A stretch of DNA of 64,000 nucleotides, taken from contig JAEUSP010000118.1 in NCBI GenBank assembly GCA_016788565.1, positions 1 through 64,000 of the forward strand, written 5' to 3'. Below are positions 3,214-24,421 of the stretch, piece by piece. Each line of letters starts with the position of its first letter. The stretch's first letter is position 1. The DNA comes from Chlorobiota bacterium (GTDB taxonomy: Bacteria; Bacteroidota; Ignavibacteria; OLB7). Made by a program: the position numbers and the translations under genes. Below the pieces are notes generated by a model, which made no database searches, was not told the origin of the DNA, and saw only the letters and a program-made list of their open reading frames with translations.

Positions 3214-3438
3214 AAATATCAGCGGTTGCCGTGTGTGGGAAAAAACGTGCTGCGAAAATAGGAAACGGGGGAAGGGAAGCCTGCATGAATTACGAATTAT
3301 GAAGGGTGAAAAACTTGCCCCGCCCTCCCCTTCCCCCGCTGATGTTTTCATCAGCATGAACGGAGGAAAGAAGGGCGGGGCAGCAAGGATTGCAAACTAC
3401 GCCATGCGTGCGGGGGGGTGAGTGAGTGAGTAGGCCAG

Positions 3439-9372: not shown

Positions 9373-9504
9373 CCGATGCCCGGCACACCCACTACCTACC
9401 AAATTTTTGCACTACCCACAGGTGAGAACTTTTGCAGGTTTCGTTGTCTTTACCGTAGCACTACGGCAACGACGCTCAGCAATTGGCTTTTCCAGCACAG
9501 CAGA

Positions 9505-11103
9505 ATGAAGCACCCTATCCCCTCCATTTTCCGTTCTTTCATCCTCCCCTGCATTGTTGTGGCAATGCTTCTTTTCACCGCGGCCCATGCGCAGCCGATT
9601 GATTCGGTTGGGAACAGCACACTGAGCAATATCGAGTTTGCCGTGACGAACAACGGGATGATTGCCTACAACCCATCGGCCCGCACCGGAAAATTTATTG
9701 CCCCACGCGGGGGCAAGTCGCAATATCTGTTTGGCGGGGGGCTGTGGTTTGCGGCGCAACGGATGGTTGGCGATACGCTGCAACGCTTGGTGTTCTCCAC
9801 CTACAACCCCGTCACCAACCGAAGCGCGGCAACGCCCGGCGATGCCTTCACCAACGACACCGCCGCCCCACCAATCGTCTATCACTCCACCAAGTACGAC
9901 CGCTGGAGCGGGAAGCCATCCGCCGGCAATGCTGGCCCGAACTGGCCACTGTGGCTGATGCCCACTCAGCCCGTTGCTACCGCACTGCTGCCCGGGCAGT
10001 TCGAGCCGGAAAACAGCAAAAGAACAAAAGGGCAATACAGCCAACCGGCATTTGTTGGAATTGCCGACGAACAGTTCACCGTCCGCTACCACGACCGTGA
10101 TCTTTCACGGTATGAGATCAGCACCGCCGCCGCAACCGAGCGTGGCTATCCGATTGGATTGCAGGTTCAGCAGAACGTCTATTCCTGGCAATCGGGACCG
10201 CTACGGCATACGGTGGTGGTGCAGTACGCCGTCACCAACATCAGCGGCCTTACACTTTCGGAGTGTGTGGTTGCGCAGATTTCCGACCCCGACATCGGCC
10301 AACACCGTGGCAACGACCACGCTGTTTTCTACACGCGCGACCCTTCGCTGCGCGCCTGTTATGCTTGGAGCGATACCGAGTCTGGTGAGAGTTTAGGGGC
10401 GTTGGCAATGGCGATTCTGGAGGCCCCGACCGTCCAGCCTGGCGATGTGATTGGCACAAGCAGCCGCGCCGACTACCGACGTTTCGGAAAGGTCGGTTGC
10501 TTCGCTACGTGGCGGCGTTCCGACTCCATCCCCTACCCCATCACCGATCTTGAGCGCGCCAGCTTGCTGCAGAAGCAATCGTTCGATCCCGACACCACTG
10601 CCGGCGATCAAGTGGTGGTGCTTGGCTCCCATCCATTCACCATGAAGCCGGGCGATGTTGCCCATTTTGCCGTTGCCTACGTAGTGCTGGATAGTGTCCC
10701 AGACCGCACCGCAACCGGCACCCCCAACGGCACGGCGGCAATGGGGGCGATGCCTGAGTTAGAGGAGCTTGTGCGCGAAGCGGAGGATGCCTACTACCTG
10801 CCAACCACAGTAAGTTCGGCCACGCCTTCCGCTCAGTCTTCAACGGTAGCGTTGCCAACCATGCAGCTTTTCCCGAACCCAACCGCTGGCTTGGCTACCC
10901 TCCAACTATCCCTCCCTTCGGCATCGGCAGTGGAGTTGCGGGTGTTTGACAATTTGGGCCAGCAAGTGATCCAGCACCAGCTTGGCCAGTTTGCTGCCGG
11001 CCCGCACAGCCTGCCGCTGGTGATGAACCTTCCGCCTGGGGCGTACCGGGTTGAACTTGCCGCCGGAGCCGAACAGAGCAGTTGCCCGCTTGTGATCCAG
11101 TAG
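9505..11103 (+). CDS. Secreted protein with T9SS type A sorting domain, function unknown
   Basis: 532 aa. Signal peptide at the N-terminus (FILPCIVVAMLLFTAAHAQ, cleavage after HAQ). The body (about 30-440) has no enzyme motif I recognise. The last 75 residues (MQLFPNPTAGLATLQLSL through LGQFAAGPHSLPLVM to LPPGAYRVEL) are a typical Por secretion tail that directs the protein through type IX secretion and is removed or sorted at the outer membrane. Start is ATG 9505, directly before the signal peptide; the upstream in-frame codons are not signal-like. Confidence 0.7.
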   Translation: MKHPIPSIFRSFILPCIVVAMLLFTAAHAQPIDSVGNSTLSNIEFAVTNNGMIAYNPSARTGKFIAPRGGKSQYLFGGGLWFAAQRMVGDTLQRLVFSTYNPVTNRSAATPGDAFTNDTAAPPIVYHSTKYDRWSGKPSAGNAGPNWPLWLMPTQPVATALLPGQFEPENSKRTKGQYSQPAFVGIADEQFTVRYHDRDLSRYEISTAAATERGYPIGLQVQQNVYSWQSGPLRHTVVVQYAVTNISGLTLSECVVAQISDPDIGQHRGNDHAVFYTRDPSLRACYAWSDTESGESLGALAMAILEAPTVQPGDVIGTSSRADYRRFGKVGCFATWRRSDSIPYPITDLERASLLQKQSFDPDTTAGDQVVVLGSHPFTMKPGDVAHFAVAYVVLDSVPDRTATGTPNGTAAMGAMPELEELVREAEDAYYLPTTVSSATPSAQSSTVALPTMQLFPNPTAGLATLQLSLPSASAVELRVFDNLGQQVIQHQLGQFAAGPHSLPLVMNLPPGAYRVELAAGAEQSSCPLVIQ

Positions 11104-11231: not shown

Positions 11232-11921
11232 ATGAATCAACGACGGGCAATCATACTCTTCCTTCGGGATGAGCAGGAAGAAGCGCTGCTGAAGCCGCTT
11301 CCGCAGGGGTGTGTTGCTGGCGGTTATCGGCAGTTGAACCGCAGGGTTGCCGAACGGCTATCGGAGGCCGCCACTTCCAACGCCGATTTGGTTGTGGTGG
11401 GGACCGAGCGGATTGGCGGCCTTACCACGATTCCGCAACGTGGCGTTGGTTTTGGGGAACGAATTACTAACGCCTTGTGTGACGTGTTCGCGCTGGGCTA
11501 CGGCCACGCGGTGGTGGTTGGAAACGATTGTCCCGCGCTGGCCCCGAACGAAATTGCCGATGCCTTTGCCGCGCTTCAGCAAGGGGCCGCCATTACCGCA
11601 GCCCCAGCGCACGACGGAGGCGCGTACCTTGTTGGCGCGGCAGCCGATAGCTTTACCCCCACCACCTTTGTTAGCCTGCCGTGGCAGACTGAGTCTCTGT
11701 TTGCCGCATTGCTGGCACTTCCCGCAGCGGCATCGGTTGGCCCAATCCGGGCTGATTTCGACACGTGGGCAAGCGCGGCTGCCCGCCACGCACTGCGGCA
11801 ACTGATCGGCTTCACTATCCGAACATTTCTCCCGTTCCGTATCCAACCACGCTCGCTCCAGTGGCACTCCATCTGGCGGGCCATTGCCCGCCCGCATCTT
11901 CCCGCACCGCCCAGTATCTGA
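11232..11921 (+). CDS. DUF2064 family glycosyltransferase-like protein (rSAM/selenodomain-associated transferase 1 type)
   Basis: 229 aa, GT-A-like fold. Conserved family blocks are visible: VVVGNDCPALAPNEIADAF near residue 100 and AAPAHDGGAYLVGAA near 130, the latter shared with nucleotidyl/sugar transferases. Members often sit next to the ArsS-type radical SAM proteins, one of which lies 11 kb downstream (23366). Start is ATG 11232 (MNQRRAIILFLR), the first residue of the fold. The C-terminus runs about 30 residues past the domain and ends shortly before the TonB receptor's leader region. Its exact substrate is not known for the family. Confidence 0.75.
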   Translation: MNQRRAIILFLRDEQEEALLKPLPQGCVAGGYRQLNRRVAERLSEAATSNADLVVVGTERIGGLTTIPQRGVGFGERITNALCDVFALGYGHAVVVGNDCPALAPNEIADAFAALQQGAAITAAPAHDGGAYLVGAAADSFTPTTFVSLPWQTESLFAALLALPAAASVGPIRADFDTWASAAARHALRQLIGFTIRTFLPFRIQPRSLQWHSIWRAIARPHLPAPPSI

Positions 11922-12104: not shown

Positions 12105-15092
12105 ATGAAACATAGCCTACTATCATTCAGCATTTTCACGAAGCGAGCCGGGCTGCTTGCTTCGGCCATTATCGCGCTAACCGCTACGGCCGCCGCCGAA
12201 GATATTGAGGTGGCAATCAGCAATGGCGCAACCCGCCAACCGGTTGCCGGAATTATGGTGACGCTGGAGAACGCCGGAATTGGATTCCGCGCAACCGCGG
12301 CCACCAACGAACAAGGGAAGGTCCGGTTCTCCGGCCTAACAACATCCGGCGCGTACTCCGTTTCCACCGATGACTCCGAAGAATACTTGCCCGGGCGCGT
12401 CACCAACATCACCCTGCGGGCCAACGCCCCACGCAGCATCAACCTGGTGCTGATCCCAAAACGGACTACGGAGTCGCGCACGATTACCGTGATTGGCAAA
12501 GGGGAAGCCGAGCTAAACAGCATCAACGCCGAGGTCTCCTCCACAATTAGCACACGCCAGATTGAGGGACTACCAGTGGAAGGGCGCGACCTTACCCGCG
12601 TGCTGTTCCGGCTTCCGAACGTCACCCAAGCCACCGGCTTTTTCACCGAGGCTCCAAACGTCAGCATCAACGGCGTGAACGGCTTGTATGCCAACTACTT
12701 GGTGGATGGAATGGACAACAACGAGAACTTCCTGGGGGGGCAGAAATTTGCCATGCCCAGCGGCTTCGCCCAAAGCGTTACGGTGCTGGCCAACAACTAC
12801 TCCACCGAGTTCGGACGGACCGGAAGCGGCATCTTTAACATCACCACCCGTTCGGGAAGCAACACCATGTCGGGGGAGGTATTCTACCTTGTTCGCCCGG
12901 GACCTTCGATTGATGCTGGCAACCCGTACGCCCAGCGTGACCTTTCCGGAAACCAGGTGAAAGATGGATTCCAACGCCACCAAGCTGGTGTTGCCGTTGG
13001 CGGCGCAATCGTGCCCGATAAAACCTTCTTCTATGCCAACTTCGAGCAAACGTTCGACCTGAAGGATAACCTGCTTTCCGTTCCACAACTGAACGTGAGC
13101 CAGACCGTTCGCGGGACCAACAACTTCAGCTTTGCTTCGTTCAAGATCAATCATTTCTGGAGCGAGCGGTTCAGTTCATCGCTGCGGGCCAACGTGGGGC
13201 TGGTGGGGATTGAACGGCAAGGGGGTGGTTTGGAAGGGGGCATCGGCTTCCCGTCGTCGGCCAACACGCAGGATCGGAACTCGGTGTTGATCGGTTCGCA
13301 GAACATCTACACGGGGGAGAATTTCACTTACGAAGGGAACCTCCAATTCAGCCGGTTCCGCTGGAACTATGCCAACCCAGCAAACCCCACCAGCCCGCAA
13401 GTCTTTGTGCTGGATTCCAGCGGCAACAACGCGCTGGCGGTGTTGGGCCACCCGGGCTACGTTTTCGATGACGTTGAGAACACCATCAACGTCCAACAGA
13501 AAATCAGCATGAACATGGGGAACCACCGCTTGAAATTCGGTGCCGAACTTCTTTCGGCTGACTTTGCTTTAACCGGCGGCGGCAACCCGAACGGCAACTA
13601 CACGGTGCGGTTGAACGGCCAACAACAGCGCGACCTTGCCGCGCGCCAGCTGGGGTCGGGGTTTGGCATCAACGACATTCCTTCGGATGTGGCAGTGCTG
13701 AATTACAGCATCGAGTTGCAGCCCACATCGTTCGGCAAGCGCCAGAATATCATCAGCGTTTATGCCGAGGATTTGTTCTCCGTCAGCAGCAATCTGAACC
13801 TGACAATTGGGCTGCGCTACGACTACGACAACCTATCGGTTGGCGGCGGCGATGCTGGCGACCTTGACAACATTGCGCCCCGCCTTAGCTTCAACTACAA
13901 GCTGGATGAGCAAAGCGTGATTCGGGGTGGATACGGAATTTTTTATGATAAAATCTTGTACGCCATCTACAGCGACGCGCTTCAGCAGAACTCCACTTCG
14001 GCCGGATACCGCCAGCAGCTTCAGCAGCTGATTGACCGTGGGTTGCTTCCCGCCGACACGGACCTTGATAACATCACCAACGACGGCAACGTCACTGCCG
14101 ATGTCGCCAACGGTGTCACCTATCTGCAAGGGCCTTCCTCCGAATCGCAGCAAAACGCCCGCGCACTTGCCACCAGCAACGAGCGGCGCATCCTGAACCC
14201 GAACGGCTACCAAAACCCGATGACCCACCAGGTTTCGCTTGGCTACCAATACCAAGCCAGCGACAACACCCTGTTCTATGCCGACTTGATGTACACGCAA
14301 TCGCGCAACCTGCCGCGGCTGTACAACCTGAACGCACCGGCGCTCTATCCAATCAACGCGCAAAATGTGGTGGTCCGCACCGACTCGGCTGCCGATGCCA
14401 CGCGCCCAATTGCGGTGATACCAGGCGGAGCCAAAAACATTGTGATGACAGAGATGGGGGGGAAAGGGGAATACATGGCAGCATCGCTGAATGTGGTGAA
14501 GGAGAAAGGGGGCGACGATTACGCTTATCGGCTTAGCTACACGCTGTCGCGGTCGTACAACAACACCGAGGATATCAACTTCAAGGCACAGGATGGGAAC
14601 AACTTCCAGGCAGAGTGGGGGCCATCGGTGAACGACCGAACACACGTCGTCAGCGGCATCTTCTACTACTACCCCATCGCCGATCTTGGCGTGACGGTGG
14701 CGGCATTGCTGCAAAGCGGGCAACCAATCAACCGCGTTGCCGACGGCACCAAGTTCGGCACCACCGACCTGAACGGCGACGGGACCAGCTACGGCGACCA
14801 GTACGTGGCCAATGTGGATCGCACCCCGGGCGTGGAGCGGAACGCCGACCGATTGCCCTGGTCAAAAACTGTTGATTTGGGAATCCAATACAGCATCCCC
14901 GTTAGCAGTGCCATGAAGGTGGAGGTCCGCGCCGACATCTTCAACGCCTTCAACATTGTGAACCTTAGCGGCTACCCCAACAACGCCACGCAAAGCAACC
15001 AGATTCAGGTTGGTGAGGTTGGCGATCCGGTGGTGCAGCGGAACATTGCGCCGCTACGCCAATTCCAATTTGGAGCGCGGCTGCTGTTCTGA
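12105..15092 (+). CDS. TonB-dependent outer-membrane receptor with N-terminal carboxypeptidase-regulatory-like domain
   Basis: 995 aa. A signal peptide (cleavage near TATAAA-ED) leads to a CarboxypepD_reg-like Ig domain (about 28-120), a plug domain (about 135-240, with VDGMDN and FGRTGSGIFNITTRSG) and a 22-strand-type barrel ending in the aromatic terminal motif QFGARLLF. It would import a large or scarce ligand across the outer membrane using TonB energy; the ligand cannot be read. It is the closest outer-membrane receptor to the ABC importer operon that starts 237 bp further on, but a strong terminator lies between them, so any functional link is inference. Confidence 0.85.
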   Translation: MKHSLLSFSIFTKRAGLLASAIIALTATAAAEDIEVAISNGATRQPVAGIMVTLENAGIGFRATAATNEQGKVRFSGLTTSGAYSVSTDDSEEYLPGRVTNITLRANAPRSINLVLIPKRTTESRTITVIGKGEAELNSINAEVSSTISTRQIEGLPVEGRDLTRVLFRLPNVTQATGFFTEAPNVSINGVNGLYANYLVDGMDNNENFLGGQKFAMPSGFAQSVTVLANNYSTEFGRTGSGIFNITTRSGSNTMSGEVFYLVRPGPSIDAGNPYAQRDLSGNQVKDGFQRHQAGVAVGGAIVPDKTFFYANFEQTFDLKDNLLSVPQLNVSQTVRGTNNFSFASFKINHFWSERFSSSLRANVGLVGIERQGGGLEGGIGFPSSANTQDRNSVLIGSQNIYTGENFTYEGNLQFSRFRWNYANPANPTSPQVFVLDSSGNNALAVLGHPGYVFDDVENTINVQQKISMNMGNHRLKFGAELLSADFALTGGGNPNGNYTVRLNGQQQRDLAARQLGSGFGINDIPSDVAVLNYSIELQPTSFGKRQNIISVYAEDLFSVSSNLNLTIGLRYDYDNLSVGGGDAGDLDNIAPRLSFNYKLDEQSVIRGGYGIFYDKILYAIYSDALQQNSTSAGYRQQLQQLIDRGLLPADTDLDNITNDGNVTADVANGVTYLQGPSSESQQNARALATSNERRILNPNGYQNPMTHQVSLGYQYQASDNTLFYADLMYTQSRNLPRLYNLNAPALYPINAQNVVVRTDSAADATRPIAVIPGGAKNIVMTEMGGKGEYMAASLNVVKEKGGDDYAYRLSYTLSRSYNNTEDINFKAQDGNNFQAEWGPSVNDRTHVVSGIFYYYPIADLGVTVAALLQSGQPINRVADGTKFGTTDLNGDGTSYGDQYVANVDRTPGVERNADRLPWSKTVDLGIQYSIPVSSAMKVEVRADIFNAFNIVNLSGYPNNATQSNQIQVGEVGDPVVQRNIAPLRQFQFGARLLF

Positions 15093-15140: not shown

Positions 15141-15182
15141 CTACTGCTCAATCACACCAACCGTTTGCTTGCAACGGCCAAC

Positions 15183-15321
15183 CTTACTCAGTTAATCTTA
15201 CTCAGTCAATCTTACTCAGCCAATCTTACTCAGCCAATCTTACTCAGTCAATCTTACTCAGTCAATCTTACTCAGTCAATCTTACTCAGTCAACCTTACT
15301 CAGTCAACCTTACTCAGTCAC
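15183..15321 (+). repeat. Ten tandem copies of a 14-bp repeat in the importer operon leader
   Basis: The unit CTTACTCAGTCAAT is repeated ten times with only T/C changes at three positions; the last copy is 13 bp and ends 7 bp before the ATG of the substrate-binding protein. Fourteen is twice seven, matching the heptamer period of other repeats in the window. The array is free of stops in every + frame, so the reading frame of the next gene is artificially extended through it. Confidence 0.97.
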
Positions 15322-15328
15322 TGTTCGC

Positions 15329-16558
15329 ATGAAATTTTTCGCACTGCTCTTTGCCCCACTCTGCTTGCTGCTGGTGAGCTGCGGCAGAAGCACCCCCGAC
15401 AAGCCGCAGCCGGTGAATCTGGCCACAGCATCGTGGGAGCAGATAGCGGCCGAAGCACGTGGCCAAACCGTCACACTTGCCATGTGGCAAGGCGACCCGC
15501 TGATTAACGACTACATGAAAAACTACGTGGCCCCGGCGCTGAAACAGCAGCACGATGTCACGCTAAACATTGTGGGAAACCAGGGGAACGACATCGTTTC
15601 CACCTTGATGACCGAAGCCGAAGCAGGAAAAGAAGAAAGCAGCTACGACCTGATGTGGATTAACGGCGAAACCTTCTACCAACTGCGCCAGGTGCAGGCT
15701 CTGCACGGCCCGTTTGTTGCGAAGCTGCCCAACGCCGCAATGATTGATTTCGGCAACCGATTTATCAACACCGATTTCCAGCAACCTGTGGATGGCTACG
15801 AATGCCCCTGGGGGAACGTGCAGCTGGCGATTATCTACGACACCGTTCGCGTTCCCAATCCGCCACGAACCCGCCAGCAGCTGGAGGACTACGTGAAGGC
15901 CCACCCAGGAACCTTCACCTTCGATAACTCCTTCACCGGCATGACGTTTTTGAAATCGCTGCTGATTGACATTGCTGGCGGCGAGCAGCAACTTGCCGGC
16001 CCGTTCGATTCGGCCAAATACGCGGCCTACTCGGCCCAGCTTTGGGAATACATCAACCGCCTGAAACCATACTTCTGGAAAGGAGGGAAAACGTATCCAA
16101 CGGCGGTGGCTCCGCTTCACCAAATGTTTGCCAACGGCGAAGTGAATTTCACCATGAGCAACAACGATGGCGAAGTGGATAACAAGGTGCTGCAAGGCAT
16201 CTTCCCCGGCACGGCCCGCGCTTACGTGTTGCAGCGGGGAACAATCCAGAACAGCCACTACATGGGGATTCCCAAAAGGTCCCCCCACAAAGCTGGGGCA
16301 ATGGTGGTGTGCAACTTCCTGATTTCGCCGGAAGCACAGCTGCGCAAATTGGACCCAACCGTTTGGGGCGATGGAACCGTGCTGGATATCAACCGGCTGC
16401 CAGCCCAGTGGCAACAAAAATTCCGCAACCTGCCGGGGCGGAAGTACGCCCCCCCACGAGAAACAATCCAAGCCCAAGCCCTGATGGAGCTTGCGCCGGA
16501 GTACATGATCCGTTTGTTCGATGACTTCAGGAAATATGTTATCCAGAAGCAATCTTGA
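15329..16558 (+). CDS. ABC importer substrate-binding lipoprotein (YnjB-like)
   Basis: 409 aa. Signal peptide with lipobox LVSC (Cys 18), so it should be a lipoprotein in the periplasm. The mature part is a two-lobed class II binding protein like YnjB (COG4134): DLMWINGETFYQLR near residue 110, GYECPWGNVQLAIIYD near 155 and the C-terminal MGIPKRSPHKAGAM. YnjB-type proteins belong to the spermidine/thiamine/iron-binding superfamily but their ligand is unknown. Start ATG 15329 immediately precedes the signal peptide and follows the 14-bp repeat array. First gene of a run in which nearly every start overlaps the preceding stop. Confidence 0.85.
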   Translation: MKFFALLFAPLCLLLVSCGRSTPDKPQPVNLATASWEQIAAEARGQTVTLAMWQGDPLINDYMKNYVAPALKQQHDVTLNIVGNQGNDIVSTLMTEAEAGKEESSYDLMWINGETFYQLRQVQALHGPFVAKLPNAAMIDFGNRFINTDFQQPVDGYECPWGNVQLAIIYDTVRVPNPPRTRQQLEDYVKAHPGTFTFDNSFTGMTFLKSLLIDIAGGEQQLAGPFDSAKYAAYSAQLWEYINRLKPYFWKGGKTYPTAVAPLHQMFANGEVNFTMSNNDGEVDNKVLQGIFPGTARAYVLQRGTIQNSHYMGIPKRSPHKAGAMVVCNFLISPEAQLRKLDPTVWGDGTVLDINRLPAQWQQKFRNLPGRKYAPPRETIQAQALMELAPEYMIRLFDDFRKYVIQKQS

Positions 16559-17399
16559 CCGTGCGGGATTTCTGCTGTTTCTGATCCTGGCAATCCTGCC
16601 GATGGCCGCAAGTTTGGCCTACGCCGCTGGCTACAGCGTGGGGCTTGTGGGGTTGCTGTCGGAAGGGTTTACGTGGCAGTATTGGGCGCGTCCGTTCCAG
16701 GAAGGGAACCAGATTTTTGCATCGTTTGTTTTTAGCCTTCTGGTTGCTGGCGCGGCAACGGCAATCACTCTGGCGATTGCGTTGTTGTTGGTGTTGGCGG
16801 CGCGGCGTTCGCTGGATAACGGGTTGTTGGCGCACCTATCCACCATTCCGCTGGCGCTGCCGGGGACGGTGCTGGCGTTCCTTGTGCTTCAGTGGTTCTC
16901 CGGGTCGGGAATTGCTGCGCGCATTGCCTACGCGCTGGGGCTGCTGCAAACCCCCGCCCAGTTTCCCGGCATCGTGCACGACCAGTATGGAGTTGGGATT
17001 ATCATTGCCCAGGTGATTGTTGGGGTCCCGTTTTTTGCGTTGCTGTTTGCGCAACTGTGGCACAACCAACGGATACGCCAGCTGATGGAGCTTGCGCAAA
17101 CAATCGGTGCAGGCCGCCGCCAACGGGTGGCCTGGGTTGCGATTCCACTGCTGCTGCATGGTGCGTTCCCCACGGTGATACTCCATTTAGTGGCGGTGAT
17201 TGGGGTCTATGAAGTCCCGCTTCTGCTGGGGGCGCAATCCCCACAAATGATCTCCGTTCTGACCATGCAGAAGTACGGCATGTTCGATCTTCAGCAAAAA
17301 CCGGAAGCCTTTATCTGCGCAATTCTTTATACCCTTCTTTCACTTTCGCTGATCGCCGTTGCGTGGCGCAGAATGAAGCATGAGCAATCGCCCCGCTAA
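16536..17399 (+). CDS. ABC importer permease 1 (YnjC N-half-like)
   Basis: 287 aa with six or so hydrophobic helices. The EAA-type loop that docks the ATPase is seen as MELAQTIGAGRRQRVAWVAI near residue 190. It overlaps the end of the binding-protein gene by 23 bp. The start ATG 16536 has AGGA just upstream; ATG 16521 in the same frame would add five residues. Together with the next gene it replaces the single long YnjC permease of enteric bacteria by two half-size subunits. Cytoplasmic membrane. Confidence 0.85.
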   Translation: MLSRSNLDRAGFLLFLILAILPMAASLAYAAGYSVGLVGLLSEGFTWQYWARPFQEGNQIFASFVFSLLVAGAATAITLAIALLLVLAARRSLDNGLLAHLSTIPLALPGTVLAFLVLQWFSGSGIAARIAYALGLLQTPAQFPGIVHDQYGVGIIIAQVIVGVPFFALLFAQLWHNQRIRQLMELAQTIGAGRRQRVAWVAIPLLLHGAFPTVILHLVAVIGVYEVPLLLGAQSPQMISVLTMQKYGMFDLQQKPEAFICAILYTLLSLSLIAVAWRRMKHEQSPR

Positions 17400-18162
17400 C
17401 CTTGCCCGGATAGTTGTTGTGGCCACAATGGGGCTGCTGTTTGCTGCGCCCGTTGCATATCTGGTGCTGGTGTCGTTTGCCAAACACTGGACGTTTCCGC
17501 ACCTGTTCCCGCCGCAAGTCTCGGCGGAGTTGTGGCAAACAATCTGGGGGCGCGAGCAAGGGTTGGCAAGCAGTGTGGCCGCCTCCATCTTCCTTTCGGT
17601 GGTGGTGGCTGTGGGGTCCACATTGGTGGGGTTTGTTGCGGCGCGGTACGTTAGCTACCACCGGTGGCGGCGCGGGTTGCTGTTCCTGTCGTACATCCCG
17701 TTTGTGATGTCGCCGGTGGTGTTGGGGGCGTGTGTCCATGTGATTTTTCTTCGCTTGGGATTGGTTGGCAGCACGGCCGGGGTAATCGTTGCCCAGATGA
17801 TGTTTGCGCTCGGTTTTGCGGTGATCTTCTTTGCCAGCTTCTGGAATGCCGAACGGAAAGCGTTGGGGGAAGCTGCGCGGATGTTGGGGGCAACAACACT
17901 CCAAACATACCGCCGGGTGTTGCTCCCAATTTCGCGCCAGCCGTTGCTGCTCTGTTTCCTGCAGACGTTTCTTTTTTCCTGGTTCCAGTACGGGCTAACG
18001 GTGCTGATTGGCGGGGGAACCGTGAAAACGCTTCCGGTGCTGGTCTATCTTTATACCGGCGAAGCCAACATCTACTACGCTGCTGCGGCCAGCCTTCTGC
18101 TGATGATTCCCCCGTTGGTGCTGCTGTGGGGGAACCGCGCAATAACCCTACGATTTGGATAA
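17380..18162 (+). CDS. ABC importer permease 2
   Basis: 260 aa, predominantly hydrophobic, with an EAA loop GEAARMLGATTLQTYRRVLL near residue 168. It overlaps permease 1 by 20 bp, so the two are translated together and should form a heterodimeric channel. The family is the binding-protein-dependent permeases (BPD_transp_1) that go with YnjB/thiamine/iron-type importers. The C-terminus ends in a further helix pair. Confidence 0.85.
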   Translation: MSNRPANLARIVVVATMGLLFAAPVAYLVLVSFAKHWTFPHLFPPQVSAELWQTIWGREQGLASSVAASIFLSVVVAVGSTLVGFVAARYVSYHRWRRGLLFLSYIPFVMSPVVLGACVHVIFLRLGLVGSTAGVIVAQMMFALGFAVIFFASFWNAERKALGEAARMLGATTLQTYRRVLLPISRQPLLLCFLQTFLFSWFQYGLTVLIGGGTVKTLPVLVYLYTGEANIYYAAAASLLLMIPPLVLLWGNRAITLRFG

Positions 18163-18190
18163 CGCCTTGCTCACGCATGGCCAAAAATTT

Positions 18191-18946
18191 ATGATCCTAA
18201 CCGTCCAAGACATCTGCAAACGCTTTGGCCAGCAAACCGTGCTGCAAGGGGTGACGCTCTCGGTTGCCGAGCGCCGCACGCTCAGCATCTTGGGGCGTTC
18301 CGGTTGCGGCAAAACCACACTGCTGAAAATTATTGCCGGGCTGGTGAAGCCCGATAGCGGCGCGGTGCGGCTGCACGGAACGGAGATTGGCCAACAACTT
18401 CCGGAGGCGCGGAACGTGGTGTATCTGTACCAGGAACCACTCCTGTTTCCGCATCTGACGGTGTTGGAAAACGTGGCGTTCGGGCTGCGGGTGCGCCGCG
18501 CTTCCGCCAGCGAAATTGCCAGCCGCACCGGACGGATGCTGGAGCATCTGGGGATGGAGTCTCACGCAAAAAAATTCCCCCACCAACTTAGTGGCGGCCA
18601 GAAGCAGCGCGTGGCTTTTGGCAGGGCAATCATCATCACCCCCAACGTGCTGTTGCTGGATGAACCCTTCAGCAGCTTGGACCCAGAAACACGCGCAACA
18701 ATGCAGCAGCTGTTCAAGCAATTAGCACAGGAATATGGGATTGCATCGCTGTTTGTCACCCACGACCTGAAGGAAGCAATTCTGATGGGGGATAGCATCG
18801 GATACATGGCCGACGGAACGCTGACAACCTTTGCCAACCGGCAGGAGTTTATCAATCATCCTGATTACGGCGCAACAAAGGAAATGGAGTTCTGGAGTTC
18901 GCTACGCCAGCAGACCACAACCGAAGAATATGCAGCAAGCGTTTGA
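18191..18946 (+). CDS. ABC importer ATP-binding protein (YnjD-like)
   Basis: 251 aa nucleotide-binding subunit. Walker A GRSGCGKT at 35-42, Q-loop at YLYQEP near 80, signature LSGGQ at 133-137, Walker B LLLDEP at 154-159, and H-loop VTHD near 192. Start ATG 18191 (MILTVQDI) is chosen because the ABC fold begins there; ATG 18155, overlapping the permease stop, would add a 12-residue tail without homology. It overlaps the radical SAM gene downstream by 17 bp. No regulatory extension domain is present. Confidence 0.9.
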   Translation: MILTVQDICKRFGQQTVLQGVTLSVAERRTLSILGRSGCGKTTLLKIIAGLVKPDSGAVRLHGTEIGQQLPEARNVVYLYQEPLLFPHLTVLENVAFGLRVRRASASEIASRTGRMLEHLGMESHAKKFPHQLSGGQKQRVAFGRAIIITPNVLLLDEPFSSLDPETRATMQQLFKQLAQEYGIASLFVTHDLKEAILMGDSIGYMADGTLTTFANRQEFINHPDYGATKEMEFWSSLRQQTTTEEYAASV

Positions 18947-19940
18947 CCATATCGAATCCATCTACTGGGTGTTCACGCAGCTTTGCAACGACCAGTGCGA
19001 CCATTGCTACAACAACTCCGGTCCACGCGGCGAACGCATCACCCTGGAAGAATGTTTGGCAATCGTTGGCAATCTTCCTAACCGTGCCGATCGTATCATC
19101 CTTTCCGGCGGCGAGCCGCTTGCCGAGCGCGCGCTGCTCTACTCCATTCTGGACGCGCTACGTGCCAAATACGGGACCGCAACCCAGATCATGCTGCAAA
19201 CCAACGGCGACCTTCTGACAGAAAAGATCCTTGACGAACTGCTTGCCCGTGGCGTAACCCGCGTTGACATTGCCAGCATTGACCGCTATCACAAACACGC
19301 CGGCACACGCCGCCAGATGTTGGAGGAATTGTTCCGCTCGCGCGGGATGAACGGCGACGACACCGACCCGTTAATCGAGAAAGAAACCTACCTGAAGCAA
19401 GGCACCGCCAGCTATGGTTTTTGGGGAGCCACCGAGGAGATGTGGCTGGGGGGAAATTGGGCGCGGGGGAGGGCAATGGAAAAAGATATTTGGCTGAACG
19501 ATCACACCCACAATTTTTGCGCAATCCTTTCCGGCGGGCGGGGTTTTTTGGGGGGAACGGAGCTTCCGCAAGAAATCTCCATCCAACTCTGGAAAATCAA
19601 TCCCTGCTGCCCCGGGACGCTTCACCCAATGGGGGATGCGCGGGTTGAGAAAGTATCGGAGGTGCTTGGGCGCGTTGCTGGTTCGGCAGTGCTGCAAGCC
19701 ATCAATCAGGGGGATCCGTACGGCATGGGGGAATCAATCGGGATTAGCCGCGCCCAGGCAATGGAGGTCGGGGCCAGGCTTGGCAATATCTGCCTGTGGT
19801 GTGATCATTTTTTTGAGCATCACTTCGACATCAAACAGCTTCGCGCCAGCAACTCCAACGTGATTCCGATTGTGATTCCGGTGCTGGTGGGACAATCATC
19901 AAATCCCGCAACGCAACACAACCCAAAACCTTCATGCTGA
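18930..19940 (+). CDS. Radical SAM enzyme of unassigned family
   Basis: 336 aa. The 4Fe-4S motif CNDQCDHC (Cys 19, 23, 26; CX3CX2C) is followed by the SAM-binding ILSGGEPL near residue 68 and MLQTNGDLL near 92. Further cysteines (NFCAIL, NPCCPG, NICLWCDHFFEHHF) could bind an auxiliary cluster, though no clear SPASM spacing is seen. It starts inside the ABC ATPase gene (17-bp overlap) and ends inside the next gene (7-bp overlap), so it is co-translated with an importer. It may modify the imported compound or make the compound that is imported. The N-terminal 33 codons of the longer open frame lie within the ATPase gene and are discarded. Confidence 0.85.
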   Translation: MQQAFDHIESIYWVFTQLCNDQCDHCYNNSGPRGERITLEECLAIVGNLPNRADRIILSGGEPLAERALLYSILDALRAKYGTATQIMLQTNGDLLTEKILDELLARGVTRVDIASIDRYHKHAGTRRQMLEELFRSRGMNGDDTDPLIEKETYLKQGTASYGFWGATEEMWLGGNWARGRAMEKDIWLNDHTHNFCAILSGGRGFLGGTELPQEISIQLWKINPCCPGTLHPMGDARVEKVSEVLGRVAGSAVLQAINQGDPYGMGESIGISRAQAMEVGARLGNICLWCDHFFEHHFDIKQLRASNSNVIPIVIPVLVGQSSNPATQHNPKPSC

Positions 19941-20557
19941 ACATAGTTGTGATCCACAATGGCATCCATGAGTTGGAGCTGATGTTCCAACCGACGGCGG
20001 AAGCCAGCTACACCTTTGTGCGAACCGGCCCTGGCTTCCCCGAACGGCTTGCGGCCACGCTTGCCACTGCCGACGCGCTGCTTGTTCCGAACGGTTCGGA
20101 CCACGTTGCAATGCTGGATGCCAGCAATGTTGTGGTGGAATTTCTTCAGGCCGGCAAAACGCTGTTTTGTTTCGATGGCTGGTTCACTGCATGGATTCCC
20201 GGGAACCATTGGCAGATGGATAACAGCCGCCGAACCATTGAAATACGCTACCAGATTGGAACCGACCAGCACAACATCTTGGATGGCGTAGCCATTGATG
20301 AGCTGATCTTCAATCATGGTATTTCCGGCTGGTGGGCTTGCGGATTTATCACCCCCGCCGCCAACGCCGAAGTTCTGCTAACCGACACATGGGGCAGGGC
20401 AATGGTGGTGCTGGACGAAGCCACAACGCCAGGGCGAATGATCCTAACTTCCAGCGGACCGCTGGCCGATTTCAGGTACGATGGCAGCAACAGCAACGCC
20501 CTATCGCACCTCTACCGGAACCTCCTTGAATACTCATCACAAAAAATCCAACCATGA
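19934..20557 (+). CDS. GATase/ThuA-like protein, first tandem paralogue
   Basis: 207 aa, no signal peptide. The alternating strand/helix pattern (LNIVVIHNG, DALLVPNGSDH, FLQAGKTLFCFDGWFTAW) suggests a class I glutamine-amidotransferase-like or ThuA-like flavodoxin fold. The strand after AGKT carries a Cys at the position where class I GATases have their nucleophile, but the flanking glycines of a true nucleophile elbow are lacking. It overlaps the radical SAM gene by 7 bp and the next gene by 4 bp. It aligns along much of its length with the next gene (FLQAGKTLF / FLAAGNTVF; closing segment NLLEY / NLTEW). Function unknown; family assignment is tentative. Confidence 0.6.
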   Translation: MLNIVVIHNGIHELELMFQPTAEASYTFVRTGPGFPERLAATLATADALLVPNGSDHVAMLDASNVVVEFLQAGKTLFCFDGWFTAWIPGNHWQMDNSRRTIEIRYQIGTDQHNILDGVAIDELIFNHGISGWWACGFITPAANAEVLLTDTWGRAMVVLDEATTPGRMILTSSGPLADFRYDGSNSNALSHLYRNLLEYSSQKIQP

Positions 20558-21210
20558 ACAACGTAGCATTGCTGTTTAACGGTGTCTGGTCCCACTACGT
20601 GTTTGCAACCGCGCCGAAATACCGCGACATCTACCAGCTGGTGTATGTCCACGACCTAACCGATGCTCGACTTGCCACCATGCGGGCATTGGTGATTCCG
20701 TTCCAATCCAACCAAGATGCCATAGCCGAACGGAAGGGGGTGATCTACCGTTTTTTGGCGGCGGGAAACACCGTGTTTGTGGAAGGGGACAGCCGCCCCG
20801 ATTGGTTGGACGCACAGTGGGAGGATCGCCCAGTGAACAACTACTGGTGGGTGGAACATCCCAACAATCCGCCGGTGGCCGATACCAATGTTCAGCATCC
20901 ATTATTCCGTGGCTTGCAGCCGCGCCACGCCTGCTGGCACACGCACGGGGCCTACACCCGAATCCCTTCCGAAGCTCGCGTTGTGCAACGCAACGGCGAT
21001 GGTGAAATCGTCTCCTGGGAAACCAACCAGTACGGCGGATGCCTGTTTGCAACAACCCTGGATGGGATAGTGGAGCAAGGGGTGCAGCAGATTACCCACC
21101 TTGATAACTTCTGCGATAACCTCACCGAATGGCTTAGCGGAGTTCGTCCATCCCGCGAACGGATGACGATTGACCCCGCAGCCTACGGCATCACAACAAT
21201 CAGCCGATAA
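20554..21210 (+). CDS. GATase/ThuA-like protein, second tandem paralogue
   Basis: 218 aa, starting in an ATGA overlap with the preceding gene. The same layout is visible: VALLFNGVW, ALVIPFQSNQD, FLAAGNTVFVEGDSRPDW, and then a His/Trp-rich stretch (HACWHTHGAY). At the place where the first paralogue has FCFDGW it has FVEGDSRPDW, so the Cys is lost. The two proteins may form a heterodimer with one degenerate partner. It is the last tightly coupled gene of the importer operon; the next start is 54 bp away. Not recognised as a named family. Confidence 0.6.
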   Translation: MNNVALLFNGVWSHYVFATAPKYRDIYQLVYVHDLTDARLATMRALVIPFQSNQDAIAERKGVIYRFLAAGNTVFVEGDSRPDWLDAQWEDRPVNNYWWVEHPNNPPVADTNVQHPLFRGLQPRHACWHTHGAYTRIPSEARVVQRNGDGEIVSWETNQYGGCLFATTLDGIVEQGVQQITHLDNFCDNLTEWLSGVRPSRERMTIDPAAYGITTISR

Positions 21211-21264: not shown

Positions 21265-21600
21265 ATGCCAACCTACTACGAATCGAACGACCTTGCCCGC
21301 TTTGCCGATGTTGGAACCCACCAACGTCCGCTGATAGACAAGTTCTTTGAATACTACGGCATGGCCACCGGAACCGACGGAGCCTTGACCAAACGCGAAA
21401 AACAACTGATCGGCCTTGCCGTTGCTCACACCATCCAATGCCCCTACTGCATTGATGCCTACACCACCGGCTGCCTTGAATCGGGTGCCGACCCTGAGCA
21501 GATGACCGAGGCACTGCACGTTGCCGCCGCCGTCCGTGGCGGAGCCTCGCTGGTGCACGGTGTGCAGATGCTGAACGGGCTGGAGAAAGTTGGGGCGTGA
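21265..21600 (+). CDS. Arsenosugar biosynthesis-associated peroxidase-like protein (carboxymuconolactone decarboxylase fold)
   Basis: 111 aa, AhpD/CMD fold. The redox CxxC is CPYC at 59-62, preceded by AHTIQ and followed by IDAYTTGC, and the helix LTKREKQLIGLAVAH typical of the family comes before it. This length and sequence fit the small CMD proteins that accompany ArsS-type radical SAM genes. It would act as a thiol-dependent reductase or peroxidase in the cytoplasm; its exact role in that pathway is not established. It follows the GATase-like gene after 54 bp, so it may be the last gene of that transcript; repeats separate it from the dipeptidase. Confidence 0.8.
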   Translation: MPTYYESNDLARFADVGTHQRPLIDKFFEYYGMATGTDGALTKREKQLIGLAVAHTIQCPYCIDAYTTGCLESGADPEQMTEALHVAAAVRGGASLVHGVQMLNGLEKVGA

Positions 21601-21705: not shown

Positions 21706-21888
21706 GGAAATCGGTGAGTAATTCTTTGATTTCATTGCCCCGTGCTTCAGCGCGAGGGGGGATTGCGCGCCCCCCCACCTTTTTCCCCAAAACTTGGGGG
21801 GACGCGAAGCTCGCCAGAGCGAAGCAGGGGGGCGCGCCGTTCGGTGGCTCCACTCATACTTCGACGGGCTCAGCATGAGCGGAGGGCG
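21706..21888 (+). repeat. 180-bp direct repeat, left copy, flanking the dipeptidase-ArsS module
   Basis: Nearly identical to 24422-24602 in the same orientation. Landmarks in order: GGAAATCGGTGAG, TTTGATTTCATTGCCCCGTG, the palindrome CCCCAAAACTTGGGG, GCGAAGCTCGCCAGAGCGAAGC, and the dispersed element CTCATACTTCGACGG...CAGCATGAGCGGAGGGCG. Differences are small indels and a few substitutions. Confidence 0.9.
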
Positions 21889-21935
21889 GGGTTCGGTGGT
21901 GGCTCTGATATTTCCCACTCTCTCTTTCCCTTTCC

Positions 21936-22050
21936 CCCCAAACTTGGGGGGACGCGAAGCTCGCCAGAGCGAAGCAGGGGGGCGCGAGTTCGGTGGCTTC
22001 GCTCATACTTCGACGGAGCTTCAGCATAAGCGGAGGGCGTGGTTCGGTGG
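21936..22050 (+). repeat. Second, shorter copy of the same dispersed element
   Basis: Begins at CCCCAAACTTGGGGGGACGC and repeats the GCTCGCCAGAGCGAAGCAGG and TTCGACGGAGCTTCAGCATAAGCGG parts of the preceding unit, without its left half. Between here and the dipeptidase start (22235) I see only pyrimidine-rich heptamer-like DNA and an unremarkable leader. Confidence 0.85.
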
Positions 22051-22234
22051 TATCCGCTCTTGCTTCTATTTCCTACTCCCTATTTCCTTCCCCCGGCATT
22101 GGCTCCCACTCTCCCAGCTGGCGAATGCGGGGCAATCCGTAGCTTCATCAACTTGGCAGCGCGCGCGCGGGGTGAGGGCAGGTAGCGAAGCGGAACCAGA
22201 ACAAACATTCCAACATCAACGAACCAAAACAACC

Positions 22235-23275
22235 ATGCTCATCTTCGACGGACACAACGACCTGTTGTCGCGGCTGCACGCCATTGGCGACCACAGCGGC
22301 GCAAGTTTTTTTCGGCGAAACTCCGAAGGCCACCTTGATTTGCCACGGATGCAGGAAGGGGGTTTTGGCGGTGGATTTTTTGCCGTCTGGTTGCCGCCCC
22401 AGGGGAAGGGAAGCGGGTTCCAGCCGATGCCCGGCGGGTACATGATTCCCCTTCCGCCGCCATTGGATTTGCCAGCATCGCAACGCCTTGCCTTTGCGAT
22501 GTCGGCAACGTTGTTCAAGATTGAGGCGGCCTCCGACGGCAAAGTACAAGTGATCCGCACAGCCGACCAGATCAGCCACTGCTTGGCATCGGGCGTTGTG
22601 GCAGCAATCCTTCACTTCGAAGGTGCCGAGGCGATTGATACCGACCTGAACGCGCTCCATGTTTTCCACCAAGCTGGCTTGCGTTCGCTGGGGATTGTCT
22701 GGAGCCGCCCGAATGCGTTTGGCCACGGCGTTCCCATCGCATTCCCGGCAACGCCAAACACCGGCCCGGGGCTAACCGAAGCGGGGAAACAGCTGGTGCG
22801 GGAGTGCAACCAGCTTGGCATTCTGATTGACCTTTCGCACCTGAACGAACAAGGCTTCCGCGACGTTGCGGCGCGAAGCCAGGCCCCATTGGTTGCAACT
22901 CACTCCAACGCTTGGGCGCTCTGCAAATCGGCCCGCAACCTGACCGATTACCAGTTGGATGCAATCCGCGACAGCGATGGGATGGTGGGGCTGAACTTCG
23001 CCACAATCTTCCTGCGAAGCGATGGCGGCCAAACCACCGATACCCCAATCGAAACGATGATCCGCCACATTGACTACTTGGTGAAACGGCTTGGCCCAAC
23101 ACGGGTGGGATTCGGAAGCGATTTCGACGGGGCCGCCGTGCCGCAAGCCATTGGCGACGCTGCCGGGCTACCCAACTTGATCGAAGCGCTTCGCCAACAC
23201 GGCTACAACGACGAACTACTTCAGAACCTTGCTCACAAAAACTGGGTGCGGGTGATGCAGCTAACAATGGAATGA
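22235..23275 (+). CDS. Membrane dipeptidase, peptidase family M19
   Basis: 346 aa. Zinc ligands of the renal dipeptidase family can be placed: FDGHNDLL (His 7, Asp 9), HFEGAEAI (Glu, near 130), IDLSHLNEQGF (His, near 200), PLVATHSNAW (His, near 221) and GFGSDFDG (Asp, near 293). These enzymes hydrolyse dipeptides, including D-residue-containing and glutathione-derived Cys-Gly. No signal peptide, so it is likely cytoplasmic. Start ATG 22235 puts HxD at the expected N-terminal position; the longer open frame runs back through repeats and is spurious. It lies 90 bp before the ArsS-type gene; both sit between direct repeats. A link to arsenic or thiol chemistry is inference. Confidence 0.9.
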   Translation: MLIFDGHNDLLSRLHAIGDHSGASFFRRNSEGHLDLPRMQEGGFGGGFFAVWLPPQGKGSGFQPMPGGYMIPLPPPLDLPASQRLAFAMSATLFKIEAASDGKVQVIRTADQISHCLASGVVAAILHFEGAEAIDTDLNALHVFHQAGLRSLGIVWSRPNAFGHGVPIAFPATPNTGPGLTEAGKQLVRECNQLGILIDLSHLNEQGFRDVAARSQAPLVATHSNAWALCKSARNLTDYQLDAIRDSDGMVGLNFATIFLRSDGGQTTDTPIETMIRHIDYLVKRLGPTRVGFGSDFDGAAVPQAIGDAAGLPNLIEALRQHGYNDELLQNLAHKNWVRVMQLTME

Positions 23276-23365: not shown

Positions 23366-24340
23366 ATGATAGATTTCCACGACAAACTCAGCCAACACCA
23401 CCTGGAACTTCCGCCAACCGGGCTTGCCACGTTGCAGGTGAACGTTGGGAAGCTGTGCAACCAAGCCTGCTTGCATTGCCACGTTGATGCCTCGCCAAAA
23501 CGAACCGAGGCAATGGATACGCGAACCGCACAACGGGTGATGGAAGTGCTTGCCGCCCACCCGCAGATCACCACGCTGGACATCACCGGCGGCGCGCCGG
23601 AACTGAACCCACACTTTGATTGGATGGTGGCCGAAGCCAAAAAATTGGGGAAGCACGTGATGGTGCGCCACAACCTTACCGTGCAGTTCGACGGCAACCC
23701 CATCACCGGCGAAAGCAAGGAGTATCTGCCAGATTTTTTTGCCGAACACCGCTGCGAGGTGGTCAGCTCGCTCCCCTACTACTCGCAGTATTTCACCGAC
23801 AAACAACGGGGGCGCGGGGTGTTCAATAAATCCATGGAGGGGATGAAGCGGCTGAACGATGTTGGCTACGGGAAGGAGGGAACTGGGCTGGTGCTGAACC
23901 TGGTCTATAATCCGGTGGGGGCGTTTCTTCCGGCATCGCAAGCCGGGCTGGAAGCCGACTACAAGCGGGAGCTATCGGCCAAGTTTGGATTGCATTTCAA
24001 CAGTCTTTTCACCATTACGAATATGCCAATCCACCGGTTCAAATCGGACTTGGTGCGGCATGGCGGCTACGATGCCTACATGGAGAAATTGCTGAATGCC
24101 TTCAACCCCGCCGCCGCCGAAGGGGTGATGTGCCGCTCGCAAATCAGTGTCAACTACGATGGCCGTTTAAGCGACTGCGACTTCAACCAGATGCTGGATT
24201 TGCCGGTGGAATCCGCCGCGCCGCAAACAATTTTCGATTGGGATTTCGATGCACTGCTGCACCGACGCATTGTGTTTGCCGACCACTGCTTCGGCTGCAC
24301 CGCCGGCGCGGGAAGCTCGTGCGGCGGGGCAACCGCGTAG
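23366..24340 (+). CDS. arsS: ArsS-type radical SAM protein (arsenosugar biosynthesis family)
   Basis: 324 aa. Radical SAM motif CNQACLHC (Cys 31, 35, 38), SAM-binding DITGGAPELN near 75 and the C-terminal Cys-rich tail FGCTAGAGSSCGGATA, which is the hallmark of the ArsS / radical SAM-Cys-rich family (DUF3641 C-terminal domain). ArsS proteins act after ArsM methylation and attach the adenosyl-derived ribose to dimethylarsenic to form arsenosugar precursors. No ArsM gene is visible in this window. Start ATG 23366 follows a heptamer array. Several members of this broader family contain selenocysteine in the tail; here the positions are plain Cys codons. Confidence 0.85.
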   Translation: MIDFHDKLSQHHLELPPTGLATLQVNVGKLCNQACLHCHVDASPKRTEAMDTRTAQRVMEVLAAHPQITTLDITGGAPELNPHFDWMVAEAKKLGKHVMVRHNLTVQFDGNPITGESKEYLPDFFAEHRCEVVSSLPYYSQYFTDKQRGRGVFNKSMEGMKRLNDVGYGKEGTGLVLNLVYNPVGAFLPASQAGLEADYKRELSAKFGLHFNSLFTITNMPIHRFKSDLVRHGGYDAYMEKLLNAFNPAAAEGVMCRSQISVNYDGRLSDCDFNQMLDLPVESAAPQTIFDWDFDALLHRRIVFADHCFGCTAGAGSSCGGATA

Positions 24341-24421
24341 GGGTGGGGGATCGGGAATCGGGGGCGGAGGTCGGGGATCGGGGAGCCGGGATCGGGAGTC
24401 GGGGGTCGGGGGGCGGTCGTT
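24341..24421 (+). repeat. G-rich degenerate heptamer array
   Basis: About ten words such as GGGATCG, GGAATCG, GGGGCGG, AGGTCGG, GGATCGG, GAGTCGG, each seven bases apart, starting directly after the ArsS stop codon. Confidence 0.8.

Follow-up and report, generated by a model that had tools for sequence, protein, structure and literature searches.

A putative uptake unit joining a TonB-dependent receptor, a YnjB-type importer and a radical SAM enzyme in a Chlorobiota bacterium

We analysed a stretch of 64,000 nucleotides from a Chlorobiota bacterium (assembly GCA_016788565.1, contig JAEUSP010000118.1, positions 1 to 64,000, forward strand), called the window below. Between positions 15329 and 21210, it carries genes for an ATP-binding cassette (ABC) importer, for a radical S-adenosylmethionine (SAM) enzyme and for two further proteins, named here G1 and G2. 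An initial annotation, made from the sequence alone, had described seven genes on one strand and all seven open reading frames were indeed found there, on the + strand. As a unit, this set proved too small: the genes of a TonB-dependent receptor and of a DUF2064 protein belong to it on the upstream side, and genes for an AhpD-like protein, an M19 dipeptidase-family protein and ArsS lie directly downstream. The unit comprises the following genes.

11232..11921 (ATG at about 11232), + strand: DUF2064 protein, divergent TIGR04282-like (GT-A/CofC-like), without the KTR motif (PF09837, 68.6 bits)
12105..15092, + strand: TonB-dependent receptor, Oar-like, with a CarboxypepD_reg domain (PF25183, PF07715, PF00593, PF13620)
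15329-16558, + strand: YnjB-type substrate-binding lipoprotein (SBP), lipobox LVSC (NF008633, 406 bits for a cut-off of 203)
16536-17399 (alternative first ATG 16521), + strand: ABC permease 1, corresponding to one half of E. coli YnjC, position conserved (PF00528)
17380-18162, + strand: ABC permease 2, position conserved (PF00528)
18155 (TTG) or 18191 (ATG) to 18946, + strand: ABC ATPase, YnjD role (PF00005, 119 bits)
18930-19940, + strand: radical SAM enzyme of an unnamed family, motif C-N-D-Q-C-D-H-C (PF04055, 55.3 bits)
19934-20557, + strand: G1, predicted class I glutamine amidotransferase (GATase)-like fold (AlphaFold2 (AF2) model and Foldseek)
20554-21210, + strand: G2, paralogous to G1 but lacking its Cys (hhalign to G1; alignment A2)

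Most junctions within the seven-gene core overlap. The SBP gene overlaps that of permease 1 by 23 nt (38 nt from the first ATG of permease 1), and the two permease genes overlap by 20 nt. Overlaps of 17 nt (ATPase/radical SAM, counted from the start at 18930), 7 nt (radical SAM/G1) and 4 nt (G1/G2) follow. Permease 2 and the ATPase overlap by 8 nt if the ATPase starts at TTG 18155; otherwise, a gap of 28 nt separates them. The earlier description of overlaps of 4 to 23 nt, conditional at the permease/ATPase junction on the start at 18155, was exact on both counts. The two permeases of the window are half-size, as compared to the fused double permease of E. coli YnjC type; fused YnjC-like permeases are present in loci L084 and L165. 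Profile searches matched the permeases and the ATPase to PhnT2/PotA/ModB-like families. Between the receptor gene and the SBP gene, at 15179-15320, a 14 bp unit (CAATCTTACTCAGT) is repeated ten times in tandem; these repeats also prolong the SBP frame upstream.

The Genome Taxonomy Database (GTDB) was scanned with the radical SAM protein, which gave 65 loci whose flanks were read (individual loci are designated by L numbers). The ATPase was found in 60 of these, the two permeases in 58 and 56, the SBP in 54 and a homologue of the TonB receptor, 5′ of the SBP or of the radical SAM gene, in 51; several of the missing genes in these counts correspond to contig ends. DUF2064 occurs in 44 loci and is located upstream of the receptor in 42. 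All 42 of the copies so located lack the KTR motif, which is present in canonical DUF2064 copies within Saprospiraceae operons (L040, L043, L062). In the window, TIGR04282 scored 72 bits for a cut-off of 134 and thus stays under threshold. The usual gene order is DUF2064, TonB receptor, SBP, two permeases, ATPase, radical SAM. This adjacency is repeated in about 60 loci from Bacteroidota, Chlorobiota, Verrucomicrobiota, Calditrichota and one gammaproteobacterium, far above chance. That unrelated genes merely happen to be neighbours here is virtually inconceivable: we found no point supporting it, and it is already refuted by an order repeated in dozens of divergent loci. Because of the gene counts across the 65 loci, TonB receptor, importer and radical SAM enzyme very probably form a functional unit. 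The claim that the operon is such a unit is thereby upheld. As for the seven genes travelling together, importer and radical SAM enzyme occur side by side in most loci, whereas the G1/G2 pair is found in 17 of the 65 loci. The comparison of loci thus shows a conserved core with optional G1/G2. In the open-licence papers searched on YnjBCD, ArsS clusters, DUF2064 and methylthioadenosine (MTA) uptake in Bacteroidetes, no account of the unit was found, consistent with the earlier remark that no known pathway has this composition.

Variants of the arrangement were also seen. The relative L004 is 86% identical. L014 (gammaproteobacterium) and L061 (verrucomicrobial) have a TonB receptor from a different family, encoded downstream of the radical SAM gene in L014 and upstream of the SBP gene in L061. 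In L036, L045, L163 and L164, the radical SAM and receptor genes are retained and the ABC genes are missing. A SemiSWEET gene follows the radical SAM gene in L009 and L050. The radical SAM family is rare: among 395 genomes of the phylum to which the window belongs, seven close and two divergent members were counted. The latter two, at about 31% identity, adjoin YnjB and a fused YnjC; therefore, the pairing of radical SAM enzyme and YnjB reaches beyond close relatives.

The gene at 18930 clearly encodes a radical SAM protein: PF04055 scored 55.3 bits for a gathering score of 29.5, and the CX3CX2C motif is present in 62 of 62 homologues. Nine cysteines (20, 24, 27, 43, 198, 227, 228, 289 and 292, counted from the codon before the ATG) are invariant in the same 62 sequences. 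Among the matches listed, no NCBIfam model scored over its cut-off. The enzyme is not recognised as ArsS, TIGR04167 (cut-off 300 bits) being absent from the best 25 of 55 matching families, of which the top one scored 43 bits. PDB sequence searches returned generic core-domain matches only. By analogy with twitch- or SPASM-type radical SAM enzymes, which carry auxiliary clusters, the C-terminal set of cysteines could hold one auxiliary cluster.

The paralogy of G1 and G2, proposed in the initial annotation, was borne out by hhalign (96%, with 22% identity). A profile check gave no significant Pfam or NCBIfam match to either protein, so that they define two protein families lacking a model in these collections. 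PDB sequence searches with G1, G2 or the SBP gave nothing useful. The AF2 model of G1 has a predicted local distance difference test (pLDDT) value of 86 and a predicted template modelling (TM) score of 0.88. In Foldseek searches, it matched 3fij with an E value of 2.7e-6, TM scores ranging from 0.5 to 0.6. Compared to the GATases TrpG (anthranilate synthase), PabA (aminodeoxychorismate synthase), PuuD and GuaA (GMP synthetase), the TM score was about 0.55. Of the GATase/ThuA-like character earlier ascribed to the pair, the class I GATase-like fold of G1 is thus supported; the ThuA likeness is not, Pfam giving no ThuA match to G1 or G2 at E values up to 1. In the G1 model, Cys79 lies within or at the end of strand 76-80, after a strand running into VPNGSD. 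This strand order is presumably that expected of a GATase nucleophile elbow. On this model, Cys79 would sit where the nucleophile of a class I amidotransferase is located. It occurs in 17 of the 18 G1 sequences of alignment A1, being missing in the L003 homologue, and the loss of this Cys from the second paralogue was correctly noted, G2 having no such residue. With class I glutamine amidotransferases and related hydrolases (TrpG, PuuD, lin1909/3fij), G1 therefore shares its predicted fold and the Cys79 position, but identity is about 10-15%. No His-x-Glu that would complete a Cys-His-Glu triad is conserved across alignment A1. Because of this, glutaminase activity of G1 is unsupported, and so is the amide-transfer step that had been suggested.

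G2 does not behave as a decaying copy. Its homologues are 40-92% identical to the window copy, as compared to 29-81% for G1, and mean column identity is 69% versus 62%. G2 also has invariant His/Glu/Asp motifs of its own; WHxHGxYT and VExG..QI.HL are invariant. G2, more conserved than G1, is therefore not degenerate, and the idea of one active and one degenerate subunit is not supported, the more so as Cys79 is lost in the L003 G1. An active site composed from both proteins is possible. On the radical SAM tree, presence of the pair switches at least eight times. Its place in the operon varies as well: the pair follows the radical SAM gene, separates permease from ATPase, TonB receptor from SBP or ATPase from radical SAM, or stands between SBP and permease (L003/L095). 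Among 36 whole genomes with the radical SAM gene, G2 gave a strong match in 10 and a weak one in an eleventh, and was absent from 25. The pair is found solely in genomes with the radical SAM gene, which is present also in G280, the other genome of the phylum with G1/G2. Since position and presence vary while occurrence is restricted to radical SAM genomes, we infer that G1 and G2 together are an accessory which the radical SAM unit may have or lack. In the version first proposed, uptake is followed by an amide-transfer or sugar-related step carried out by active G1 with G2 as its degenerate partner. The GATase-like fold of G1 and a Cys kept in nearly all G1 sequences and absent from G2 agree with it. 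Against the missing His-x-Glu, the stronger conservation of G2 and the absence of the pair from 48 of 65 loci and from most radical SAM genomes, we consider it very improbable.

The substrate was approached through gene neighbourhoods. Of 247 genomes of the phylum, 12 have a YnjB-type importer, three together with the radical SAM gene (two close, one divergent) and nine without it. Eight of these nine Bacteroidota importers have readable flanks, and all eight have nucleoside enzymes adjoining the ATPase gene or within two genes of it; on the short contig of L087, no nucleoside enzyme was seen. A nucleoside hydrolase is encoded in L091-L094, with a methylthioribose (MTR)-kinase-like protein in L092-L094. 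A phosphorylase resembling MTA phosphorylase (MTAP) is encoded in L085, L088, L089 and L090, the last two of which also have a kinase. The SBPs of the hydrolase group and of the phosphorylase group are merely 38-49% identical. By a hydrolase or phosphorylase route, a 5-substituted nucleoside would lead to a 5-substituted ribose 1-phosphate. As in MTA/nucleoside salvage, the sister importers thus carry MTAP-like, MTRK-like or IUNH enzymes, though below NCBIfam equivalog cut-offs, whereas the window locus has none. A purine nucleoside phosphorylase (PNP) gene lies near the radical SAM gene in L007, L027, L048, L049, L051, L052 and L054. Comparison of the sister YnjB loci with the radical SAM loci shows an exchange of the cytosolic module beside a related importer.

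A second clue came from the genes directly downstream of the unit in the window.

21265..21600, + strand: AhpD-like, arsenosugar biosynthesis-associated peroxidase-like protein (TIGR04169, 154.9 bits for a cut-off of 120)
22235..23275, + strand: M19 dipeptidase-family protein (PF01244, 312.6 bits)
23366..24340, + strand: ArsS, arsenosugar biosynthesis radical SAM protein (TIGR04167, 422 bits for a cut-off of 300)

ArsS and its associated AhpD, which mark arsenosugar clusters, are thus both over cut-off on the strand of the unit. They lie directly downstream of it in the window and L004, and directly upstream in L049 and L051/L152. The Aquimarina locus L049 has in addition a true arsenosugar ArsM (578 bits for a cut-off of 400), a second DUF2064 gene, a rhodanese, PNP, DUF547 and TIGR04283; G1/G2 are absent from it. 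Flavobacterial loci carry a rhodanese, a second DUF2064 gene and PNP, several of them also DUF547 and TIGR04283. In L166, the order is DUF547, TIGR04283, second radical SAM, radical SAM, DUF2064; this second radical SAM protein (2131-3687, - strand), between TIGR04283 and the radical SAM gene, is weakly TrsS- or Tes-like. Among neighbours of proteobacterial YnjBCD, TIGR04282/04283 homologues were found in L113 and L122 and DUF547 in L126-L128. A homologue of the M19 protein, 58% identical, also flanks the YnjB importer in L085. Comparison thus shows genes of arsenosugar type adjoining the unit independently in several lineages. We put the probability of two independent ArsS contacts arising by chance at the order of 0.002, a rough estimate and not a computed test, taking about 25 kb searched, genomes of 4-5 Mb and roughly a dozen ArsS-positive lineages. 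Measured against known arsenosugar clusters (ArsM, ArsS, TIGR04169, TIGR04282, TIGR04283), the window shares ArsS and the AhpD-like protein downstream and DUF2064 upstream, and L049 has the full suite, but the unit's own radical SAM enzyme is not ArsS. We know of no description of a transporter and a receptor as parts of such clusters. Genome-wide co-occurrence of ArsS was rejected as proof of an arsenic role, ArsS being found in 12 of 30 radical SAM genomes and in 104 of 247 genomes of the phylum. Also not counted was the ArsM-like methyltransferase encoded between G2 and the radical SAM gene in L022, L048 and L051, because SNG replaces the QNC of the L049 ArsM.

The reading that we favour, tentatively and at a little under even chances, is uptake through two membranes linked with the action of a dedicated radical SAM enzyme, the substrate most likely being a ribosyl or nucleoside-like compound with a 5-substituent, of arsenosugar or methylthioadenosine type. 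The TonB receptor would bring a small, scarce solute through the outer membrane, and the YnjB-type lipoprotein with its ABC transporter would carry it inside. There, the radical SAM enzyme, with its core CX3CX2C cluster and its C-terminal Cys set, would modify the imported solute, perhaps by abstracting hydrogen from the sugar. Beside it, the DUF2064 protein may act, as may G1/G2 in the lineage of the window. We infer the direction of transport, the substrate class and the radical chemistry, the substrate class with moderate strength. Uptake followed by radical modification, as first proposed, is well supported by gene context.

Several observations weigh against this assignment of the substrate. 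Most radical SAM loci have no nucleoside enzyme nearby. Proteobacterial YnjBCD genes lie beside a CDP-alcohol transferase (YnjF), TVP38 and a MerA-like reductase, with no nucleoside enzymes; the CDP-alcohol transferase recurs in plasmid YnjB loci of Metabacillus and Rhodobacteraceae, with TVP38 and an FAD-oxidoreductase in Metabacillus. From the plasmid YnjB loci of Deinococcus and Sinorhizobium, nothing could be learned about the substrate. In the above comparison, ArsS is not commoner in genomes with the radical SAM gene; since it is equally frequent with and without that gene, a cell may need the unit without making arsenosugars. The genome of the window encodes ArsS together with its AhpD partner, but an arsenite methyltransferase over cut-off was not found, ArsM models scoring 56 for 263 bits (NF008823) and 38 for 400 bits (NF038099). 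The predicted SBP model (pLDDT 92) has as its top PDB match the aminoethylphosphonate SBP 4r6y, followed by ferric-ion (FbpA), polyamine (PotD) and thiamin SBPs, and a nucleoside binder is not singled out. Finally, the reaction of the radical SAM enzyme is not readable from sequence.

These SBP matches, together with the PhnT2/PotA/ModB-like transporter matches and the lack of genome-wide ArsS enrichment, lend weight to the same uptake and radical modification acting on a substrate that is neither nucleoside nor arsenic (phosphonate, polyamine-like or vitamin-like), the neighbours being shared mobile or stress islands. We regard this as a serious possibility, though not a probable one: it leaves unexplained the tightly packed, overlapping nucleoside genes of two distinct sister YnjB groups and the PNP genes in several radical SAM loci. 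A bolder reading makes the unit a dedicated import and processing system for organoarsenicals (arsenosugars or 5-deoxyribosyl precursors), in which the radical SAM enzyme and a heteromeric GATase-like pair would remodel or cleave the arsenic-ribose, genomes without ArsM or ArsS scavenging or detoxifying the products of others. We consider it unlikely. If the arsenic link is true, we know of no bacterial importer described earlier for arsenosugar-type compounds. Rather improbable is a metallophore-like loop, in which a metal or metalloid binder made by the radical SAM enzyme is exported and its loaded form re-imported through the TonB receptor and the ABC transporter. The receptor, an SBP fold shared with ferric-ion binders and the nearby arsenic-pathway genes would fit such a loop; yet no exporter, precursor peptide, non-ribosomal peptide synthetase (NRPS) or synthetase recurs among the shared neighbour families, and catabolic nucleoside enzymes replace the radical SAM enzyme in the sister loci.

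Being conserved over several phyla, the unit points to an undescribed nutrient or detoxification route. Its radical SAM enzyme is a candidate for a reaction whose substrate is a ribosyl or nucleoside compound, and the genome context hints at the substrate class of uncharacterised YnjB importers, E. coli YnjBCD included. The E. coli region ydjXYZ-ynjABCDE shares a homologous SBP and ATPase, with the AhpD-type YnjA and the rhodanese YnjE beside the importer. In contrast, it has no radical SAM enzyme, TonB receptor or DUF2064 protein, its permease is fused, and TVP38/DedA-type proteins are present instead. In L071 (E. coli MG1655, 1829000-1845000), the set of AhpD, YnjBCD, rhodanese and DedA/TVP38 overlaps the arsenosugar-type companions seen elsewhere. 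The lyase QueL of queuine salvage is presumably itself a radical SAM enzyme. That salvage follows an analogous logic, a transporter being combined with the nucleosidase QueK and/or the dedicated lyase QueL (PMC11130926). The importers described there are of other families, the paper says nothing of a TonB receptor or of an importer unit with a radical SAM enzyme, and the likeness to our unit is by analogy alone.

Further features were seen around the unit. A 150 bp unit occurs as two repeats at 21781-22063, inside the gap at 21.8-22.1 kb; it may be a dispersed repeat, because similar stretches recur in frames near 24.4-24.7 kb. Short GC-rich repeats follow ArsS, around 24340-24416. Upstream, at 9376-11103, a protein is encoded whose C-terminal match to Por_Secre_tail (secretion-system sorting domain) lies just under the cut-off.

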